Below are positions 2,827-35,203 of a DNA stretch of 39,061 nucleotides, one piece after another. Position numbers and translations under genes: made by a program. The first letter of the stretch is position 1, and every line of letters begins with the position of its first letter. Source of the DNA: a virus; the IMG/VR virus record IMGVR_UViG_3300035180_001962, positions 1-39,061 of that record; one strand, 5' to 3'. The notes beneath the pieces are model-generated. The model ran no database searches. It was not told the origin of the DNA and saw nothing but the letters and a program-made list of their open reading frames with translations.

Positions 2827-3852
2827 ATGGCTATTTCAAACTTAACAAGCTCTCTTGCTGTATACGCAACCGAATTCAAAAGCGTTCCAGGTGGAGTGAT
2901 TGATCAAATCAACCGTACGACTACTCTTGCCAAGCTTTTAACATGGAAAGCTCCAATGCAAGCTGATATTGGCTTCGTTGCTAAAGGTGCTGGCGCAACT
3001 GCTGCTAAAAACACTGAAGGTGGCGCTATTGCTGCTGGTGCTCCAAACGTTAAAGACACTGCACGTTTAGACTGGTCTGTATATGATTCTGCATTTGGTG
3101 TGACTGATCTTGCTGGCGCTAAAGCTAGTATGAGCAGCTCTCCAGATCATGATAAAAATATGTGGAAAGCTGAAATGGGAGATCATTTCGTGCAATTAGC
3201 TAAAACTCTTGAAGGTAAATTGTTTACTGCTACTGGTGGTACTCAAGAAATTTCAGGTTTAGCTCAAGCTATTGATGATACTCTTGTATATGCCGGATTA
3301 GATCCTGCTACCAAAACTTATTGGAAATCCAATGTAGTTTCTGCTGCTGCTGCTTTAAGCTTCAATGCAATTCGTTCGGATAAAACCGCTATTGCTAAAG
3401 CTTCAGGTGAAATGCCTAACTTAGCTGTTTGTGATTTAGATACTCTTGATAAATTGAATGCTTTATTCGACGGTTCTAAAGTTTATCAATATAATGTAAA
3501 TACTCCTGCTGGATTAGTTAGTCTTGAAGGCGGAGCTGGTAGAATTTCTTTTGATGGTATGGATTTCGTAGGAGCTATTGATTGTCCTGCAAATACTATC
3601 TATTACTTGAATACCAAATACATTCACGTTGAATACTTACTTCCTACATTCTGGGTCACCTTAATGAACAGAGTAAATGCTGAATTTGCCTCAATGGGAG
3701 CTGCTGCCGCTGATCCTGCTATTGGACCATTCCAATTCTATTTAAAGGATATTCCTATTGCCGCTCACGTTGAACAAGCCGCTGTTGTTTCAATGTGTCA
3801 ATTAGTTCTTACTAAAAGAAATGCCTTCGGAGTTCGTAAGAACATTCTCTAA
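2827..3852 (+). CDS. Major capsid protein
   Basis: The protein has 341 residues, within the usual HK97-fold capsid size. It lies after the scaffold-like gene and uses more C-ending and GCT/GGT codons than its neighbours, as expected for a highly expressed gene. Notable segments include an N-terminal DQINRTTTLAKLLTW region and the C-terminal PIAAHVEQAAVVSMCQLVLTKRNAFGV. The SD AAGGAAAA precedes ATG. A perfect 30-base palindrome follows the stop codon. Assignment is by position, length and expression-type codon use; I did not match a specific family. Confidence 0.8.
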   Translation: MAISNLTSSLAVYATEFKSVPGGVIDQINRTTTLAKLLTWKAPMQADIGFVAKGAGATAAKNTEGGAIAAGAPNVKDTARLDWSVYDSAFGVTDLAGAKASMSSSPDHDKNMWKAEMGDHFVQLAKTLEGKLFTATGGTQEISGLAQAIDDTLVYAGLDPATKTYWKSNVVSAAAALSFNAIRSDKTAIAKASGEMPNLAVCDLDTLDKLNALFDGSKVYQYNVNTPAGLVSLEGGAGRISFDGMDFVGAIDCPANTIYYLNTKYIHVEYLLPTFWVTLMNRVNAEFASMGAAAADPAIGPFQFYLKDIPIAAHVEQAAVVSMCQLVLTKRNAFGVRKNIL

Positions 3853-3862
3853 TTGATCTGCC

Positions 3863-3892
3863 ATGAAGGGATAGGAATTCCTATCCCTTCAT
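3863..3892 (+). terminator. Perfect 30-base palindrome downstream of capsid gene
   Basis: The 15-base arms (ATGAAGGGATAGGAA and its complement) abut with no spacer, beginning 11 bases after the capsid stop. In RNA this would form an approximately 13-bp hairpin with a small loop. There is no T tract, so termination may be partial, or it may protect the 3' end of the capsid mRNA or be processed. Confidence 0.7.
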
Positions 3893-3915
3893 GCATCATA
3901 TTAACCTCCACAAAC

Positions 3916-4114
3916 ATGAACTTAAAGGCGATTTAACGCTCACCGCGTTTTAATTACTTCTCATCCTGTTGCTGATGGAACAAATATTATAATTTCTGCA
4001 AACGCTACCGATCTTGCGTCTTCACTCACCTTGGCTAACGAAGCTAAAGTTGATTTAAATGGTCATTATGCGGCTGCATTTGCCTTTCAAGCAATTGTTC
4101 TTGCAACTGCTTAA
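3916..4114 (+). pseudogene. Frameshifted small coding region after capsid gene
   Basis: From 3932 to TAA 4112-4114 one frame reads FNAHRVLITSHPVADGTN, then IIISANATDLASSLTLANEA, then KVDLNGHYAAAFAFQ. This NAH...ANATDL...LANE.K.D.N.H pattern is a familiar repeated module in phage head-fibre-like proteins. No start codon with an SD exists in that frame. An ATG at 3916 in another frame reads MNLKA before stopping at 3934. Skipping one base near 3931 would give MNLKA-FNAHR, the expected junction. The gene is therefore frameshifted, mis-sequenced in a homopolymer, or read by +1 frameshifting. Confidence 0.6.
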
Positions 4115-4118
4115 TTCG

Positions 4119-4158
4119 GAAAGCGAATAAGGGGCGGGATTTGATCCCGCCCGCTTTC
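4119..4158 (+). terminator. Strong GC-rich stem-loop before connector gene
   Basis: GGGCGGGAT (4132-4140) pairs with ATCCCGCCC (4144-4152) around a TTG loop. An outer GAAAGC (4119-4124) pairs with GCTTTC (4153-4158). The following bases are only moderately T-rich (ATTATATTTT). It probably acts as an attenuator or 3'-end stabiliser between the capsid transcript and the connector genes. Confidence 0.7.
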
Positions 4159-4179
4159 ATTATATTTTAAGGAGCATAT

Positions 4180-15045: not shown

Positions 15046-15399
15046 ATGCCAGGTCCTTGTGATTTTCCTAGTTTCTCAATACCACCAATTACTTTACCTA
15101 GCTTAGACTTACCGGCATTGCCAACTATTAATTTGACTCTGCCGGATTTTGCCTCCCTGTTAGGTTTGCCTGGTCTACCAGCGTTACCTAGTTTTAATAT
15201 TCCACCAATTACTTTACCTAGTATTGGATTACCTGCTTTACCAACAATAGATTTAACTTTACCAGATTTTGCTTCTTTATTAGGCTTACCTGGACTTCCT
15301 GCGTTACCTAGTTTTAATATTCCACCAATTACTTTACCTAGTTTTGATTTACCTAGCTTACCAACTATCAGTCTTTTTCCGCCATTGTGTCCATTTTGA
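15046..15399 (+). CDS. Proline/leucine-rich 40-residue tandem-repeat protein in baseplate operon
   Basis: The protein has 117 residues and consists of about 2.7 copies of a 40-residue unit. Recurrent blocks are PSFNIPPITLPS, LPALPTIDLTLPDFASLLG and LPGLPALPSF. One Cys lies near each end (MPGPC, PPLCPF). It starts one base after the spike stop, with AGCAGG as SD. The DNA repeat is 120 bases, but copy 1 (15125-15180) uses more GC-rich codons than copy 2. I do not recognise a family; a spike-tip or spike-sheath structural role is a guess from context. Confidence 0.7.
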   Translation: MPGPCDFPSFSIPPITLPSLDLPALPTINLTLPDFASLLGLPGLPALPSFNIPPITLPSIGLPALPTIDLTLPDFASLLGLPGLPALPSFNIPPITLPSFDLPSLPTISLFPPLCPF

Positions 15400-15905: not shown

Positions 15906-17405
15906 ATGGCTACTAAAAAATTAGAAGAATTTCAAATCAAGACCGCTGAAGAAATTGCTCAAGATATTGTAAATAGTAAAAAAGCTTCTTATCTTAAAAG
16001 AGGTAAAGAAATTTTAGTAGCTCCCGGCTCTCAATACTACATTGATGCTAATGATCTTGCTCAACAAATTTATGCAGCTAGTCAATCTTTTGAATTAAAA
16101 GCTGCTGATATGATGCCTGATACCGCTGTTGGAGACGCTTTGTATCGTCAAGCAGCTATTAGAGGATTATCATTAAGAGCTGCTGGTCCATCTACAGGTC
16201 AGATTATATTTGATTGTAGCATAGCAACCCCTATAGGGGTTGCTCAGGGAGTAATTTTAAGTGACACTTCTGGCGCTACTTATGAAGTTAGCATTGGAGG
16301 ATTGTTTTCAGATGGTGATTTAATTGATATTGATTCAATTGATACTGGCACTTCAACTAATTTAGCTGAAGGAGAAGTTCTACGCTGGGCTTCGCCTCCA
16401 TCATTTGCTAATTCAACTGCTACGGTTGGAGTTGGTGGATTAATTGGTGGTGTTGATTCTGAAACTGATGAAAATTTAAGAGGAAGATTACTTGATAGAA
16501 TTCAACATCCACCTGGTGGTGGAAATTGGTCTCAATTAGCTTTAGCTGCTGAAGAATCAGCTAGTGCAGTTCAAAAAGCATTTGTTTATATGGCTTGCAA
16601 TGGTCCTTCAACAGTTCATGTAGCTGTTTGTGGCGCACCAACTCAAACCAATAAATCAAGACAAATGAATAACTTAATTATTACCAGTAAAGTTACTCCA
16701 GGTATTCTAGAAGTAATGCCTGAATTCGCTGAATTGGTTGTTACTAATGTTGTTGATTATCCTGCTTCAGTATCTGTCGGACTATCATTACCTGATGCAA
16801 CTACTGCTTCAATTCCTGGTCCTGGTGGCGGTTGGACTGATGCTCAACCATTTCCAGTTCCAGATTACTCAGCTAATACTTTTTGTGGAGCTATTTATAT
16901 TAATTCAACTGAAATTATAATTCAATCTACTTTACCTCCAGTTGCTGGAACTAGTAGAGTTGTTTGGATTAATAAAGCTGATTGGACCGTTCATAAAACC
17001 GTAATAGATAGTTTTACTACTGCGGGTGTTGGTCTATATGACTGTATTTTACACGATCCCTTTGCAGGATTAGTAAGCGGCGATTGGATTTTTCCAGATG
17101 CTGAAAATATTGAAACTTATATTGATGCTTTATTAACTTCTTTTAGTAATTTAGGTCCTGGTCAAAAAACCAATTCAACTAATTTACTTCCAAAAGCATA
17201 TCGTAGACCATTAGTTAATCAAAGTTGGTCTTCAAGTATTAGTCCAAGTATCTTGAAATTTATCGAAAATACTGGAGATGAAGTATTAGATGTTCAATAT
17301 CTATACAAATCAATTAACTCTGCACCAGTTGCACCTTCAATTACTAGTGGACCTTTCATTTTAATTCCATTACAAATAGGTTTCTATCCTAATGAAATCA
17401 CTTAA
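15906..17405 (+). CDS. Baseplate J-like protein (Mu gp47-like)
   Basis: The protein has 499 residues. It has VGDALYRQAAIRGLSLRAAG, then GVDSETDENLRGRLLDRIQ, PPGGGNWSQL and TVHVAVCG, all characteristic of baseplate J/gp47 family proteins. The middle (residues 280-380) includes an insertion rich in Pro and Trp. It forms the baseplate wedge with the gp46- and gp48-like proteins. A perfect 22-base palindrome lies inside the gene at 16223-16244. Confidence 0.85.
   Translation: MATKKLEEFQIKTAEEIAQDIVNSKKASYLKRGKEILVAPGSQYYIDANDLAQQIYAASQSFELKAADMMPDTAVGDALYRQAAIRGLSLRAAGPSTGQIIFDCSIATPIGVAQGVILSDTSGATYEVSIGGLFSDGDLIDIDSIDTGTSTNLAEGEVLRWASPPSFANSTATVGVGGLIGGVDSETDENLRGRLLDRIQHPPGGGNWSQLALAAEESASAVQKAFVYMACNGPSTVHVAVCGAPTQTNKSRQMNNLIITSKVTPGILEVMPEFAELVVTNVVDYPASVSVGLSLPDATTASIPGPGGGWTDAQPFPVPDYSANTFCGAIYINSTEIIIQSTLPPVAGTSRVVWINKADWTVHKTVIDSFTTAGVGLYDCILHDPFAGLVSGDWIFPDAENIETYIDALLTSFSNLGPGQKTNSTNLLPKAYRRPLVNQSWSSSISPSILKFIENTGDEVLDVQYLYKSINSAPVAPSITSGPFILIPLQIGFYPNEIT
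16223..16244 (+). other. Perfect 22-base palindrome inside gp47-like gene
   Basis: Eleven-base arms AGCAACCCCTA and complement meet without spacer, encoding IATPIGVAQ. In RNA a 9-bp GC-rich hairpin would form in the middle of the message. Such a perfect palindrome is unexpected by chance in AT-rich coding DNA. Confidence 0.6.
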
Positions 17406-17432: not shown

Positions 17433-17915
17433 ATGGCTTTACCTAATAAACAATCTTATGACGGCTTAAATGGAGAAATGGTTGACTATAAAGATCCAGA
17501 AAATCCTACTTATGATTTACCTGCCGAATGTAGTAATGAATTAAGAGCAGATACTGCTGCAATGACTGCCACTTGTGATATTGTATTCTTTACATTTACT
17601 ACAGATGGCGCCAATATGTTTGTTACTATGCATGATTCAGTGTATGGTAATGATATTAGTTATATTCCAATTGGTTTATACAACTCAGTAGGTGATTATG
17701 ATTTTACTTTACCTGCTTCAGTTGTAGATGCTAGAGGAAAAACTAAATATCTTAATTTAAGATGTGGTTATGGTAATACTGATTATCTATATGGTTTAGT
17801 ATCAGTTAAGATTACTAGCGCTAATACTATTAAAGTAATCTTAACTGATAGTTCTGGACCATCACAAAGTGATCCTCCAAATCCAACTGATAAAATAACA
17901 ATCTTTTTGAAATAA
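17433..17915 (+). CDS. Hypothetical tail/baseplate-associated protein
   Basis: The protein has 160 residues and sits between gp47- and gp48-like genes. It is beta-rich, with repeated aromatic/Gly-Asn turns (GYGNTDYLYGLVSVKITS), and ends in a Pro/Asp-rich segment followed by KITIFLK. The gene is preceded by AGATTCTACGAAAAGGAATA, whose first 15 bases also form the core of the 18-base tandem repeat at 34130-34173. I recognise no family. A small baseplate accessory is likely from context. Confidence 0.55.
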   Translation: MALPNKQSYDGLNGEMVDYKDPENPTYDLPAECSNELRADTAAMTATCDIVFFTFTTDGANMFVTMHDSVYGNDISYIPIGLYNSVGDYDFTLPASVVDARGKTKYLNLRCGYGNTDYLYGLVSVKITSANTIKVILTDSSGPSQSDPPNPTDKITIFLK

Positions 17916-22850: not shown

Positions 22851-22853
22851 ACA

Positions 22854-22883
22854 AAAATGCAGGGCGAGAGCCCTGCATTTTTT
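22854..22883. terminator. Bidirectional intrinsic terminator
   Basis: AAATGCAGGGC (22855-22865) pairs with GCCCTGCATTT (22870-22880) around GAGA, with A-rich sequence before and T-rich after. It ends the plus-strand structural operon and, in reverse, the minus-strand lipoprotein gene. Confidence 0.85.
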
Positions 22884-24384: not shown

Positions 24385-24400
24385 AATAAAATATGACAAT
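24377..24400. promoter_or_regulatory. Operator-like inverted repeat at nuclease start
   Basis: ATTGTCATA (24377-24385) is inverted as TATGACAAT (24392-24400) with a 6-base spacer. On the minus strand, the CTATGCATATTGTCATA context resembles the upstream motif at 30459 and 28242. It overlaps the gene start, so a bound protein would block expression. Confidence 0.5.
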
Positions 24401-24433
24401 ATGCATAGTTTTAATTATTTTTATTTCTATTTT

Positions 24434-24925: not shown

Positions 24926-25453
24926 ATGAATTACATTTTATCTTTTGATGCTTCCACAACTACCATAGCTTTTGCTCACTTATCAGTTGATCAAAAAGTA
25001 GTAAAATTATTGGCATGCGACCACTACAATCCTTCTAAAAAATTGGACTTGTTTCCTAAGCTAGCCAAGGTCCAAGATTTCGTGAAAGACGTTTTGAAGT
25101 CAACCTCGTGCCAGGAAACAGCCATCGAAGATATCATCCTCCACATGGCTCGATTCAGCACAGCAAAGACAATTTCTACTTTGGCAATTTTAAATAGAAC
25201 TGTCGGATTAACTATTTTTAATGAGACGGGCGTAGCCCCTGAATTATTAAATGTAATGAAAATAAGACATGCTATTAAATTAAATAAAGAGCTTCCTAAA
25301 AAAGAAGAAATTCCAAGTTTGGTAGAAAAATATATTGATGTAAATTTTCCATATGTAATTAATAAAAAAGGTAAACAAGCAATTGAGAGTCAAGATAGAG
25401 CTGATGCGATTGTGGTAGGATTGGCAAGTTTTAAAATAAAAAACCTAATTTAA
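24926..25453 (+). CDS. RuvC-like Holliday junction resolvase
   Basis: The protein has 175 residues with SD GGAG. It starts with LSFDASTTTIAFAHLS, where Asp8 is the first catalytic residue, followed by AIEDIILHMARFSTA (Glu68) and SQDRADAIVVGLA (Asp157/Asp160), the typical acidic set of the RuvC/RNase H fold. It probably resolves branched replication DNA before packaging. Bases about 25050-25170 are GC-richer with different codon choice from the rest of the gene, hinting at mosaic origin. Confidence 0.75.
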   Translation: MNYILSFDASTTTIAFAHLSVDQKVVKLLACDHYNPSKKLDLFPKLAKVQDFVKDVLKSTSCQETAIEDIILHMARFSTAKTISTLAILNRTVGLTIFNETGVAPELLNVMKIRHAIKLNKELPKKEEIPSLVEKYIDVNFPYVINKKGKQAIESQDRADAIVVGLASFKIKNLI

Positions 25454-25473: not shown

Positions 25474-25596
25474 TTACCTCCTTTCTATCTGTGCTGCTAC
25501 TCCTCTTAATATCTCCTCTTGTACCTTCGGACCAAACTTCACGTTGCCACGACCGGGGTGATACTTCTGTTTCAGCTCGATATCCACCTTTTTCAT
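25474..25596 (-). CDS. Short basic hypothetical protein (40 residues)
   Basis: SD AAGGTGG precedes ATG 25596. The product starts MKKVDIELKQKYHPGRGNVK and is basic. Its codons (GTG, CTG, GGC, CCC) are markedly GC-richer than nearby genes, suggesting separate ancestry or host-like codon use. The 3' end contains AAAGGAGG, a consensus SD with no gene after it. It is convergent with the RuvC-like gene. I recognise no family. Confidence 0.5.
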   Translation of the reverse strand: MKKVDIELKQKYHPGRGNVKFGPKVQEEILRGVAAQIERR

Positions 25597-25660
25597 AAAA
25601 AACCACCTTTTTCAATAATGTATTTTATTTTATATATTTTTGGCAAATAAGCTTGTTTTT

Positions 25661-25757
25661 CTAGCATTAAAATGATATATTGTACTGAGAGGCGGTGTGG
25701 TAGCCGTTAATTCATTTTGTTAAAATACCTGGATTGTTTCCAGGTATTTTTTTTGTT
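25661..25757 (+). ncRNA. Candidate short terminated RNA in early region
   Basis: A promoter-like block (CTAGCATTAAAATGATATAT, 25661-25680) resembles the upstream blocks at 28242 and 30459. About 45 bases later a perfect intrinsic terminator closes the unit, leaving a predicted 70-base RNA without an open frame. Its 5' part (25690-25710) matches the 5' arm of the long hairpin after the tail tube gene: AGGC, two bases, TGYGGTAGC, then CGTTAA. Existence of the transcript is inferred. Confidence 0.5.
25723..25756 (+). terminator. Intrinsic terminator
   Basis: AATACCTGG (25724-25732) pairs with CCAGGTATT (25740-25748) over ATTGTTT and is followed by a run of Ts. It ends the short RNA and insulates the origin-like region. 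Confidence 0.85.
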
Positions 25758-25760
25758 TAT

Positions 25761-25888
25761 AATGTTATACGTGATGGCTGTTATGTATAGTGAGTGAGAG
25801 TCCTATTCTCTATCCCCGCCCCCCGGGGGGCGGGGACCGTTCCTATACCTATCTATACTTCATATAACGTATAACACCATATAACATT
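25761..25888. other. Origin-like imperfect inverted repeat with G/C-only palindromic centre
   Basis: Outer arms AATGTTATA (25761-25769) and TATAACATT (25880-25888) are exactly equidistant from the centre of a perfect 22-base palindrome made only of G and C (25814-25835). Between them the arms share TGTTAT/TATAG blocks with gaps. Copies of TGTTAT or its complement occur at 25763, 25779, 25863, 25870, 25880 and 25920. Position just upstream of the helicase gene suggests a replication origin or an extruding cruciform. No gene lies here; a hairpin ATGCGG/CCGCAT (25935-25962) precedes the helicase SD. Confidence 0.55.
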
Positions 25889-25974
25889 TTTTATGATAAT
25901 CGAAAAATTCTGTGCATAATGTTATATGTACTGTATGCGGCTACCAAATAACATCACCGCATAAAGGACACAAA

Positions 25975-27375
25975 ATGAAAATTAATAATATTTTAGCTAT
26001 CGCCATTACCAAAATTCATACGGCTCATAAATCAAATGAAATGAAAGAGTATGAAATTGGCAAATTAATTGATTTTGAAGAAGATGAAGAATTAAAAAGT
26101 GGTATTAGACAATATTGGAACTCTTTTAATGAGCCAAAAATTAAAGTCGCTCCAATTCAAACAATCAAACCAGTATCTGAGTGGACTAGTAACAATCTTC
26201 AGTTAGACAATAGAGGAAACATCATGACCAATAATTCTACCAATTTATTTACTATTTTAACTGAGAATCCTAAATTCAATAATCGTTTATCATTTAATGA
26301 ATTAACGAGTCAATATTGTTACGACGGCAAAGAAATTCATGATTTAGATTATACTCAACTTCAATTAGATATTTGCACTGAATTAAGAATAAATTTCAAG
26401 AAAACTGATGTTTGCTCCATGGCAGAATTAATTGCTAAGAAAAATCCATTTCATCCAATCAAAAACTATTTAACAGGAGTTAAGTGGGATCAACAAGATT
26501 ATTTATCCATATTTCTTAAAGCAATGAATATTGAATCAAATGATATTAATTTATCAGTTTTCAAATGCTGGTTAGTTTCAGCAGTAGCTCGCATTATGAA
26601 ACCAGGTTGCAAAGTAGATAGTATTCCAGTCTTTCAAGGTACTACTGGAAATCGTAAATCATCAGCTTTAAAAGCTCTTATGCCAAATGAAGAATGGTTT
26701 ACGGATGAACCAGTAGATTTCGGAACTAAAGACTCAAAACAAATGTTATTAGGTAAATGGTTTGTGGAATTGGCTGAGTTATCTTCTTTTAATAAGAAAG
26801 ATAACAATTTAATCAAATCAAATATTACTCAAACTGTTGATGAATTTAGATCTCCTTATGATCGTAAACCAAAAAAATATCCTCGTCAATTCGTTTACAT
26901 TGGAACAACAAATGATGCAGAGTTCTTAACTGATTCAACTTCTAATCGTAGATTCTGGGTTCTTCAAAATGAAGGATTAATTGATGTTGATTTGATTACA
27001 GAAATTAGAGACCAATTATGGGCGCAAGCATATTCAATGTTTATCAAGGGCGAAAAATGGTGGTTAACTAGAGATCAAGAACAATCAATGGCAGAAATAG
27101 CTGCTCAATTTGAAGTGAAAGATGCTTGGTATGATTCTGTTGTTGCTTATCTTGAAGACAAAAAATTCGTTACAACTTCTGAAATTTTGATGAATTTAAA
27201 AGGAGATTTATCAAGAACAGATAATAATGATAAGAATAGAGTTGTTAAGATTATGCAATATCTTAAATGGACGGCAAGAGCTGGTAGAAAAGATGGAGAT
27301 TGTGTTAGCGGTTGGCACAATCCTAAATCAATAAAAGGTAAAGAATTAATCTCTGGCGTTTCAGATTGGAATTAA
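25975..27375 (+). CDS. VapE-family helicase / primase-associated ATPase
   Basis: ATG 25975 has AAAGGA at 25963-25968 and gives 466 residues; an ATG at 25912 lacks an SD. The core has NPFHPIKNYLTGVKWDQQD, Walker A GTTGNRKSS (222-230), Walker B KWFVELAEL (261-269), a sensor strand YIGTTND (308-314) and NRRFW (324-328). These identify the virulence-associated E family, SF3-like helicases of phages and islands. With no polymerase encoded, it is likely the phage replication initiator, loading the host replisome at the adjacent origin-like repeat. Confidence 0.85.
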   Translation: MKINNILAIAITKIHTAHKSNEMKEYEIGKLIDFEEDEELKSGIRQYWNSFNEPKIKVAPIQTIKPVSEWTSNNLQLDNRGNIMTNNSTNLFTILTENPKFNNRLSFNELTSQYCYDGKEIHDLDYTQLQLDICTELRINFKKTDVCSMAELIAKKNPFHPIKNYLTGVKWDQQDYLSIFLKAMNIESNDINLSVFKCWLVSAVARIMKPGCKVDSIPVFQGTTGNRKSSALKALMPNEEWFTDEPVDFGTKDSKQMLLGKWFVELAELSSFNKKDNNLIKSNITQTVDEFRSPYDRKPKKYPRQFVYIGTTNDAEFLTDSTSNRRFWVLQNEGLIDVDLITEIRDQLWAQAYSMFIKGEKWWLTRDQEQSMAEIAAQFEVKDAWYDSVVAYLEDKKFVTTSEILMNLKGDLSRTDNNDKNRVVKIMQYLKWTARAGRKDGDCVSGWHNPKSIKGKELISGVSDWN

Positions 27376-28236: not shown

Positions 28237-28241
28237 CATTT

Positions 28242-28270
28242 CTAGGCATAATGACATATTGTCTTTATAA
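28242..28270 (+). promoter_or_regulatory. Early promoter/operator-like block
   Basis: CTAGGCATAATGACATATTG followed by TC lies 53 bases before a gene start and right after a terminator. GACA-TAT-TGTC is a short inverted repeat. Matching blocks occur at 30459 and 25661. Confidence 0.45.
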
Positions 28271-30431: not shown

Positions 30432-30458
30432 AAAAATCCTCTTAAAATATTTTGGTAT

Positions 30459-30487
30459 CTAGGCATATTGTTATATTAATATAACAA
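30459..30487. promoter_or_regulatory. Divergent operator: perfect 20-base palindrome
   Basis: TTGTTATATTAATATAACAA (30468-30487) is a perfect palindrome between the divergent lysin operon and the gene at 30514. CTAGGCAT at 30459 precedes it, as at 28242. It is likely to be a repressor or activator site controlling both directions. Confidence 0.6.
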
Positions 30488-30513
30488 ACAACAGAAACAC
30501 AAAGGAAACTAAC

Positions 30514-34019: not shown

Positions 34020-34135
34020 TCGTAATACTAACATTAATTATAGCTCTTCCAACAATCGCTGTTATCATGGCTAATTTATCAAAATATAAAACTCCATATA
34101 AATCTCGTTCAGGATACAATAAGAGCATAGACTAG
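34016..34135 (+). CDS. 39-residue membrane peptide
   Basis: Starts at ATGA of the previous gene. MIVILTLIIALPTIAVIMAN is a membrane helix, followed by a short basic tail (KYKTPYKSRSGYNKS). Its stop lies in the first copy of a tandem repeat. Function is unknown. Confidence 0.5.
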   Translation: MIVILTLIIALPTIAVIMANLSKYKTPYKSRSGYNKSID

Positions 34136-34173
34136 ATTCTACGAAAAGACTAGATTCTACGAAAAGACTAGAT
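34130..34173 (+). repeat. 18-base tandem repeat, 2.4 copies
   Basis: GACTAGATTCTACGAAAA occurs at 34130-34147 and 34148-34165, followed by GACTAGAT. Its core AGATTCTACGAAAAG also precedes the gene at 17433. It lies between the membrane peptide and tRNA-Thr. Confidence 0.8.
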
Positions 34174-34188
34174 ATAAGTCGCACACAA

Positions 34189-34262
34189 GCCGCAGTAATT
34201 CAATGATAGAATATCAACTTGGTATGTTGATTATGTAAGTTTGATTCTTACCTGTGGCTCCA
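34189..34262 (+). tRNA. tRNA-Thr (GGT)
   Basis: Acceptor GCCGCAG/CTGTGGC (one G-T pair), D stem ATTC/GAAT, anticodon stem TCAAC/GTTGA with loop TTGGTAT, T stem GTAAG/CTTAC with loop TTTGATT, discriminator T and encoded CCA. Confidence 0.85.
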
Positions 34263-34588
34263 TTAATTGTTAAGTTAACTTTATCTTAATGTGATGCTTA
34301 CAGGTGTTAATCTGTTAATAGTGTTAATCCATATAATTAAATAAATATAGTTTGAAAAAAGGTAACACTCTATCTGTTATTGCTTGTTTTATAGCGTTTT
34401 AGAATGTATTTATTATGGAATGGCTTGTTTTATAGGACTTTAAAAACAGCTAAAATGTGGCAATTTTCATGCCAACGTCATAAAAAATACATTTGTTAAT
34501 CATTATTATTAATTATCTTATTATATTTAATTAATAAACATCATATCTTCAAACTCTATCATATCAAATTAATAAATAAGGATTTATC
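34263..34588 (+). promoter_or_regulatory. Non-coding region upstream of small terminase
   Basis: No gene is supported in this AT-rich stretch. It has TGTTAAT three times (34305, 34313, 34322) and again near 34495, GCTTGTTTTATAG twice (34382 and 34423) and a hairpin TGGCA/TGCCA (34458-34474). A weak sigma-70-like promoter could lie near 34493-34526. It is the natural place for the late promoter and/or packaging signal, but this is inference. Confidence 0.45.
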
Positions 34589-35122
34589 ATGGCACATTCA
34601 GAAACTAAACTATCACCAGCATTAATAGCTGAGTTATCAAAACGTAATTCATTAGGTAGTGGCTATAGAGCTTTACAAGAATGGTTATCAGGGACTCATA
34701 AAATAGAATTATCACATATTACAATTCGTAAGAAGATATTGGCATATCGTGAGGACAATTATGAGTTATCAAAAGAACTGCGCGCTGAAAAGAAAGAACA
34801 GTTATCTATTACTATAGATTCTGATTTAGCACTTATTCAACATGAGATTGATGCAATGTTAAAGATTGCCGCTGAATGTGAAGCTAAGAAAGATAAACGT
34901 AATCGTATGGCTGTTACTGATAGATTAGCTAAGTTAGTTGATTTGCGTAGAAAATTCTGTGGTGTTAAAACTCCTGAAGAAGAAATTGCTGATAGAGGTC
35001 CAATTGCCTCAGATACATTAATGAGTAGATTGGATGATTTAATTGAAAGACGTAAAGCTGATAAAGAACCTATTGTTTCTGATTGGATTGAACCAGAAAC
35101 AGTTATCGGTAAATCCAATTGA
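34589..35122 (+). CDS. Putative terminase small subunit
   Basis: The protein has 177 residues and SD AAGGA. It has an N-terminal HTH-like region (SKRNSLGSGYRALQEWLSGT, then HITIRKKILAYRED) and a central helical domain (DSDLALIQHEIDAMLKIAAE), the layout of small terminases. The C-terminal part is acidic/basic mixed. It precedes the large terminase by one gene. Its final codons lie within a perfect 27-bp inverted repeat, so the gene end may carry a packaging or regulatory site. Confidence 0.65.
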   Translation: MAHSETKLSPALIAELSKRNSLGSGYRALQEWLSGTHKIELSHITIRKKILAYREDNYELSKELRAEKKEQLSITIDSDLALIQHEIDAMLKIAAECEAKKDKRNRMAVTDRLAKLVDLRRKFCGVKTPEEEIADRGPIASDTLMSRLDDLIERRKADKEPIVSDWIEPETVIGKSN

Positions 35123-35203
35123 TTCCGCGATAAATGTATGGAATACGTATATACGTTGACGCATAACAGCAATAGCACATTTATCGCGGAATCAATTGGA
35201 TTT
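35111..35203. repeat. Perfect 27-bp inverted repeat with 39-base spacer
   Basis: The left arm 35111-35137 (starting AAATCCAATTGATTCC) matches the inverted right arm 35177-35203 at all 27 positions. The spacer starts with the ATG of the next gene and contains palindrome ACGTATATACGT (35145-35156). The element covers the small terminase stop codon and the start of the gene at 35138. It could be a hairpin regulator, a packaging or recombination site, or an assembly artefact. Confidence 0.85.

Follow-up and report, generated by a model that had tools for sequence, protein, structure and literature searches.

A box-flanked G/C palindrome upstream of a phage VapE-type helicase gene: a possible replication-control region

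The origins of phages with stand-alone VapE/PriRep1-type helicases have been little mapped. A palindrome of G and C lying ahead of such a helicase gene, in IMG/VR virus record IMGVR_UViG_3300035180_001962, raises the question of whether it belongs to a replication origin, to an operator, or to neither. The window is the whole stretch of DNA that was analysed, 39,061 nt long. Tentatively, we read the region 25597-25974 as the replication-control region of the phage's VapE/PriRep1-type helicase. A role for this region as the vapE operator has good support and its inferred, probable role as a replication origin has moderate support; nicking of a cruciform at the palindrome is unsupported. The relevant elements are listed below, where a box is a member of the family TGTTATAYG.

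24926-25453, plus strand: gene for a 175-aa protein with weak similarity to RuvC-like resolvases, below cut-offs; its single-sequence fold is uninformative
25763-25771, plus strand: box 1, TGTTATACG, exact
25779-25787, plus strand: box 2, TGTTATGTA, degenerate
25813-25836, unstranded: palindrome with 22 G/C-only bases; a hairpin with a 10-bp stem is possible on either single strand
25861-25869, minus strand: box 3, CGTTATATG, one mismatch
25868-25876, minus strand: box 4, TGTTATACG, exact
25878-25886, minus strand: box 5, TGTTATATG, exact; forms the outer symmetric pair with box 1
25887-25919, unstranded: AT-rich segment flanked by boxes 5 and 6, which are inverted relative to each other; candidate site of melting
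25893-25920, plus strand: putative vapE promoter, ATGATA-16-CATAAT, a consensus match only
25920-25928, plus strand: box 6, TGTTATATG, exact; overlaps the putative vapE -10 at its end and continues past it
25934-25963, plus strand: vapE leader hairpin, UAUGCGG, loop CUACCAAAUAACAUCA, CCGCAUA, immediately 5' of the ribosome site AAAGGA
25945-25953, minus strand: box 7, TGTTATTTG, with one mismatch; lies in the vapE leader hairpin, within its loop
25975-27375, plus strand: vapE, encoding a 466-aa stand-alone VapE/PriRep1-type AAA+ helicase with a predicted C-terminal winged helix (residues ~386-448)

The original prediction described a 22-base G/C-only palindrome at 25814-25835, which is indeed present, and its perfect symmetry extends two bases further, giving the 24-bp sequence TCCCCGCCCCCCGGGGGGCGGGGA without a spacer. 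In a genome of 34% GC, the 22-base core is the longest G/C run of the window, the next runs being 11 and 10 bases. Chance would supply 0.007-0.01 perfect palindromes of at least 24 bp in the window, and about 5e-11 G/C-only palindromes of this length. The terminator scan did not report the palindrome, and a T-run is absent on both sides, so it is not an intrinsic terminator. The DNA fold z-score of the surrounding region is -5.6; the palindrome itself contributes -13.1 of the -24.0 kcal/mol fold energy, and an equally stable fold is reached with shuffled flanks in 11 of 500 cases.

The gene that begins just downstream was proposed to encode a VapE-type helicase, an assignment that is well borne out. 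Its product, which starts at the ATG at 25975, contains a VapE-like domain (Pfam, E 1e-70), and its model matches PriRep1 bound to double-stranded DNA (Foldseek E 3e-28; sequence E 1e-34). The C-terminus is predicted with high confidence to form a helix-helix-helix-strand-strand winged helix, the usual place of origin binding among helicases of the VapE/PriRep1 group. Matches of vapE to 'DNA primase' PHROGs are restricted to its helicase part, and no nickase/HUH, primase, polymerase or protelomerase was recognised among the window proteins scanned (Pfam/PHROGs). Consensus matches like that of the putative vapE promoter are no commoner in the window than in shuffles. On the 3' side of vapE lies a GIY-YIG gene, with zero exact boxes. 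Upstream, a 40-aa minus-strand ORF at 25474-25596 has a strong ribosome site, a terminator-like hairpin of its own and a G+C content above its surroundings; it has no family match.

The palindrome is framed by short repeats, as had been noted from the letters alone. The 9-base arms AATGTTATA at 25761-25769 and 25880-25888 are perfect complements centred on 25824.5, the centre of the palindrome, and they are members of the TGTTATAYG family. All four exact copies of this motif in the window fall within 25763-25928, against an expectation of 1.45 for the genome and 0.006 for that stretch; the motif was picked after the region had been viewed, so that the latter figure flatters the case, for which the evidence is the exact 9-mer count. 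An 8-mer cluster scan placed coding repeats on top, and the boxes were outside its top 20. Together with three near-copies, the four exact boxes occupy 191 bp that take in the palindrome and the vapE promoter region, in the order two forward, palindrome, three reverse, AT-rich stretch, one forward where vapE transcription putatively starts, and one reverse in the leader. When two boxes on the left and three on the right are placed at random, 10% of the placements yield one or more exactly symmetric pairs, so the exact arm symmetry alone is weak evidence; two nested pairs centred within 0.5 base (25763/25878 and 25779/25861) occur in 1.6%. The right-hand arm also has a longer partner, since CATATAACATT (25878-25888) and AATGTTATATG (25918-25928) pair perfectly over 11 nt across 29 nt, within a stretch that is 78% A+T over 25887-25935. 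The GC palindrome is therefore not the sole centre of symmetry.

These observations can be joined in a mechanism that draws on directly established sequence elements and their statistics, on the protein family and on the predicted fold. A single DNA-binding protein would recognise the boxes, and VapE, through its winged-helix end, is the likeliest candidate. The box sets around the palindrome and the pair around 25887-25919 would serve to load the hexamer and to melt the AT-rich DNA, while box 6, which coincides with the putative start site of vapE, and box 7 would allow VapE to repress its own gene. The palindrome may act as a marker of, or a spacer between, the flanking box sets, forming a hairpin only when single-stranded, and would not serve as a nick site. 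The ~1.8-kb segment 25597-27375, which holds the boxes, the palindrome and a possible control RNA, offers a testable minimal replicon in a phage without near relatives. Counting against the origin reading are the GC skew, the 5' location and the lack of a palindrome excess in distant VapE loci.

There is a serious possibility that the palindrome is functionless, template switching at imperfect palindromes having made it along with several other repeats. This explanation covers the palindrome only and is compatible with the mechanism above as well as with a purely operator role of the boxes. Template switching at quasipalindromes is documented (PMC7202029), and during replication it would yield the excess of inverted repeats seen across this genome, where seven perfect inverted repeats with arms of at least 12 and a spacer of at most 100 stand against 0.55 expected. 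Three have arms of at least 16, against 0 in 40 simulations, and zero-spacer palindromes of at least 20 bp number 4 against 0.08 expected. Because the perfect inverted repeats are in general excess and some are intragenic, the GC palindrome may be non-functional. A 17-nt-arm repeat lies within a gene (17800-17850), a 22-bp palindrome within the baseplate gene (16223-16244), and a 27-nt-arm repeat (35111-35203) extends from the end of the presumed small-terminase gene into the beginning of the following gene. Other inverted repeats (22853-22882 and 25722-25750), however, are plain terminators, nothing else in the genome matches the palindrome's G/C-only composition, G/C arms of 11 nt are rare in their own right, and its place amid the box sets would have to be put down to coincidence. 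If the palindrome is a template-switch product, this genome is a good case of perfect-palindrome formation, genes included.

Further repeats occur elsewhere in the window. The stretch 3853-4179, after the major head gene, holds a 32-bp perfect palindrome, CATGAAGGGATAGGAATTCCTATCCCTTCATG, at 3862-3893, then a coding-like frame lacking a start codon and then a G/C terminator-like hairpin at 4131; a gene here may have been broken, bypassed or frameshifted. The ORF at 15046-15399 carries imperfect ~120-bp repeats at 15082-15350, in which CTAGGTAA and ACTTTACC recur. The contig ends (1-240 and 38822-39061) are 98% identical across 240 bp. At each of the five positions that differ the first copy has C and the last has T; every one of these changes falls on a second codon position and alters the amino acid. 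The ends are probably a repeated protein segment or a circular overlap, and from them the genome is read as probably near complete.

A doubtful explanation, if with an appreciable chance of being right, is that the boxes are operators and nothing else: they would bind a phage repressor or activator controlling vapE and the promoter at 30.47 kb, and replication would start elsewhere. The boxes could equally be read as operators of an unrelated repressor, as a TGTTATAT palindrome is also present at 30468-30487, in another promoter region. There, within the divergent region 30432-30513, the same core forms the 20-bp perfect palindrome TTGTTATATTAATATAACAA, a probable operator, and in the region under study box 6 sits on the putative vapE start site. 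The 30.47-kb site, however, ends in TATATT rather than TATAYG and may have nothing more in common with the boxes than an extended -10-like core; Pfam and PHROGs recognised no repressor-type gene with confidence; and five boxes lying ~30-160 bp upstream of the start site exceed the need of a simple operator.

Replication starting elsewhere also agrees with the GC skew, whose circular cumulative minimum falls near 34.1-34.7 kb and not at 25.8 kb, where the original prediction would place it. This minimum coincides with a competing candidate, a 569-bp AT-rich non-coding stretch with repeats (34020-34588). A local dip near 26 kb tracks gene direction, and after strand correction the skew signal is not significant, so that an origin at 25.8 kb is neither established nor ruled out by skew. 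The ranking of the palindrome region as the best origin candidate thus stands in part: the unique box cluster beside a self-loading-type helicase with a predicted winged helix favours it, and GC skew does not. Immediately 5' of a tRNA gene, 18-bp tandem repeats AGACTAGATTCTACGAAA occupy 34129-34173.

Far less probable is the model in which an extruded cruciform is nicked or bound by an initiator, as in a rolling-circle-like origin. It would account for the perfect palindrome, the symmetric flanking repeats and the fold z-score, much of which comes from the palindrome itself. Nicking by the initiator finds no counterpart in the window, however, as no nickase/HUH protein was recognised among its proteins and the VapE-like protein matches the hexameric helicase PriRep1. 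Extrusion, too, is weakened, because the centre is G/C-only, the hardest type for a cruciform to extrude. An assembly artefact, a fold-back chimera at a hairpin in a single virus contig, is scarcely credible: G/C hairpins do sequence poorly, but the symmetry ends after 24 bp and such a chimera would run much further.

Comparison with other genomes gives few landmarks. No close relative was found in IMG/VR (VapE, TerL, sheath and portal proteins; VapE, TerL and portal alignments; the exact palindrome), in GTDB genomes (VapE and TerL queries), or in INPHARED or PLSDB (DNA or protein), where no relative means none among searchable records, which may omit ones very near the window. The best VapE identity, 39% over part of the protein, is to a locus (L020) with a 15-base G/C run ~276 bp upstream of its vapE; this run was rejected as a sign of conservation, having no equally long perfect palindrome and no matching boxes. 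In the same locus, which belongs to a distant relative, two consecutive hairpins with a nearly identical loop, TCTGATCCAYCGA, lie at 3380-3425, ~120 bp upstream of its stand-alone vapE. Only one of 250 loci, an 8.3-kb locus without vapE (L098), shares portal, terS and capsid, at ~27-39% identity. Distant VapE loci show no palindrome excess, with 1 observed against 0.96 expected at a length of at least 20 bp in a 701-kb comparison set of other loci, nearly all of them VapE loci. A Holosporales-like alphaproteobacterial host, suggested by TerL matches, was considered, but VapE was absent in 5 such genomes and the portal in 289 genomes of the class.

Returning to the control of vapE, a promoter-hairpin-terminator unit at 25652-25757, newly described here, is a candidate for a ~60-nt RNA. 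Its parts, predicted from the letters, are as follows.

25652-25681, plus strand: putative small-RNA promoter, TTGTTT ... TATATT, containing CTAG..ATGATATATT
25688-25757, plus strand: candidate small RNA with hairpin GGCGGU, loop GUGGUA, GCCGUU at 25691-25708 and a terminator stem at 25722-25750, then a T-run

The CTAG..ATGATATATT pattern has a single further copy in the window, in the upstream region at 28242, with 0.05 matches expected. Related promoter-like sequences, CTAGGCATAATGNYATATT, are found at 28239-28263, 30455-30479, 24388-24408 (minus strand) and 25656-25684, and their presence in several upstream regions points to a possible phage-specific promoter class. The terminator combines a 12-bp stem with a T-run (fold z -5.3), and could alternatively end the gene at 24926-25453. 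Rfam matches in the window are tRNAs only. The segment 25691-25708 (plus strand) is complementary to the vapE leader at 25936-25961, with 16 pairs in two blocks and -28.1 kcal/mol, a value reached by 3 of 4558 segment pairs of the same spacing in the genome. This pairing ranks 6th against 1792 genome windows and was found post hoc; we take it as a lead. The short terminated RNA, if expressed, may pair with the vapE leader beside the ribosome site and damp translation. It is a long shot that both layers form one switch, in which an origin-operator of VapE and its boxes surrounds the G/C palindrome and the small-RNA loop kisses the vapE leader hairpin, limiting initiator synthesis. Such a switch, if true, would be plasmid-like copy-number control in a phage.

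How does the preferred reading, a replication-control region of the helicase, compare with known systems? The window holds no recognised HUH/nickase Rep as at rolling-circle double-strand origins, and its scanned proteins contain no protelomerase domain as for telRL sites. The closest parallels come from mobile elements with related helicases. In PICIs, whose Rep helicases are related, two iteron sets flank a putative melting site beside rep (PMC6092414). The likeness lies in an adjacent, related self-loading helicase (PriRep1 fold match) and in sets of short repeats that flank a putative melting segment beside the helicase gene (PMC6092414). Boxes 3-5 and 6-7 flank the AT-rich 25887-25919 in this manner, yet boxes 1-2 and 3-5 flank the GC palindrome, around which the larger symmetry lies. 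Unlike in SaPIs and PICIs, the region is 5' of vapE and not immediately 3' of rep, no primase gene or domain was recognised in the window (Pfam/PHROGs), and the genome is that of a complete-looking myovirus (tail sheath, portal, terminase) and not an island.

For pRN1-type primase-helicases, and likewise for phage BIP-1, stem-loop origins have been proposed (PMC4234260). These share with the present locus an inverted-repeat structure adjoining a helicase with a winged-helix end (PMC4234260). The pRN1 and BIP-1 structures are, however, large stem-loops (~100 nt in pRN1), compared with a 24-bp zero-spacer palindrome here, and they belong to fused archaeo-eukaryotic primases without an iteron origin, whereas the present region has boxes and a helicase without a primase domain. 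In the PICI, pRN1 and BIP-1 elements alike the origin lies on the 3' side of the helicase gene, in contrast to the 5' position found here.

Control of the initiator gene has its own counterparts. The origin-operators of iteron plasmids carry repeated and inverted boxes over the rep promoter, an arrangement that the present boxes resemble and that suggests autoregulation; here there are few boxes, most of them inverted and not in tandem, and the initiator is a VapE helicase. Antisense RNAs control rep genes in ColE1 and IncFII/IncI plasmids, and lambda OOP RNA offers a further comparison. The candidate RNA is likewise short, strongly terminated and near a replication gene, with a loop predicted to pair with that of the leader hairpin. 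Unlike these RNAs, it would come from an imperfect inverted copy lying upstream on the target's own strand, and not from the opposite one. If the small RNA is real, plasmid-style antisense control would act on a phage initiator.
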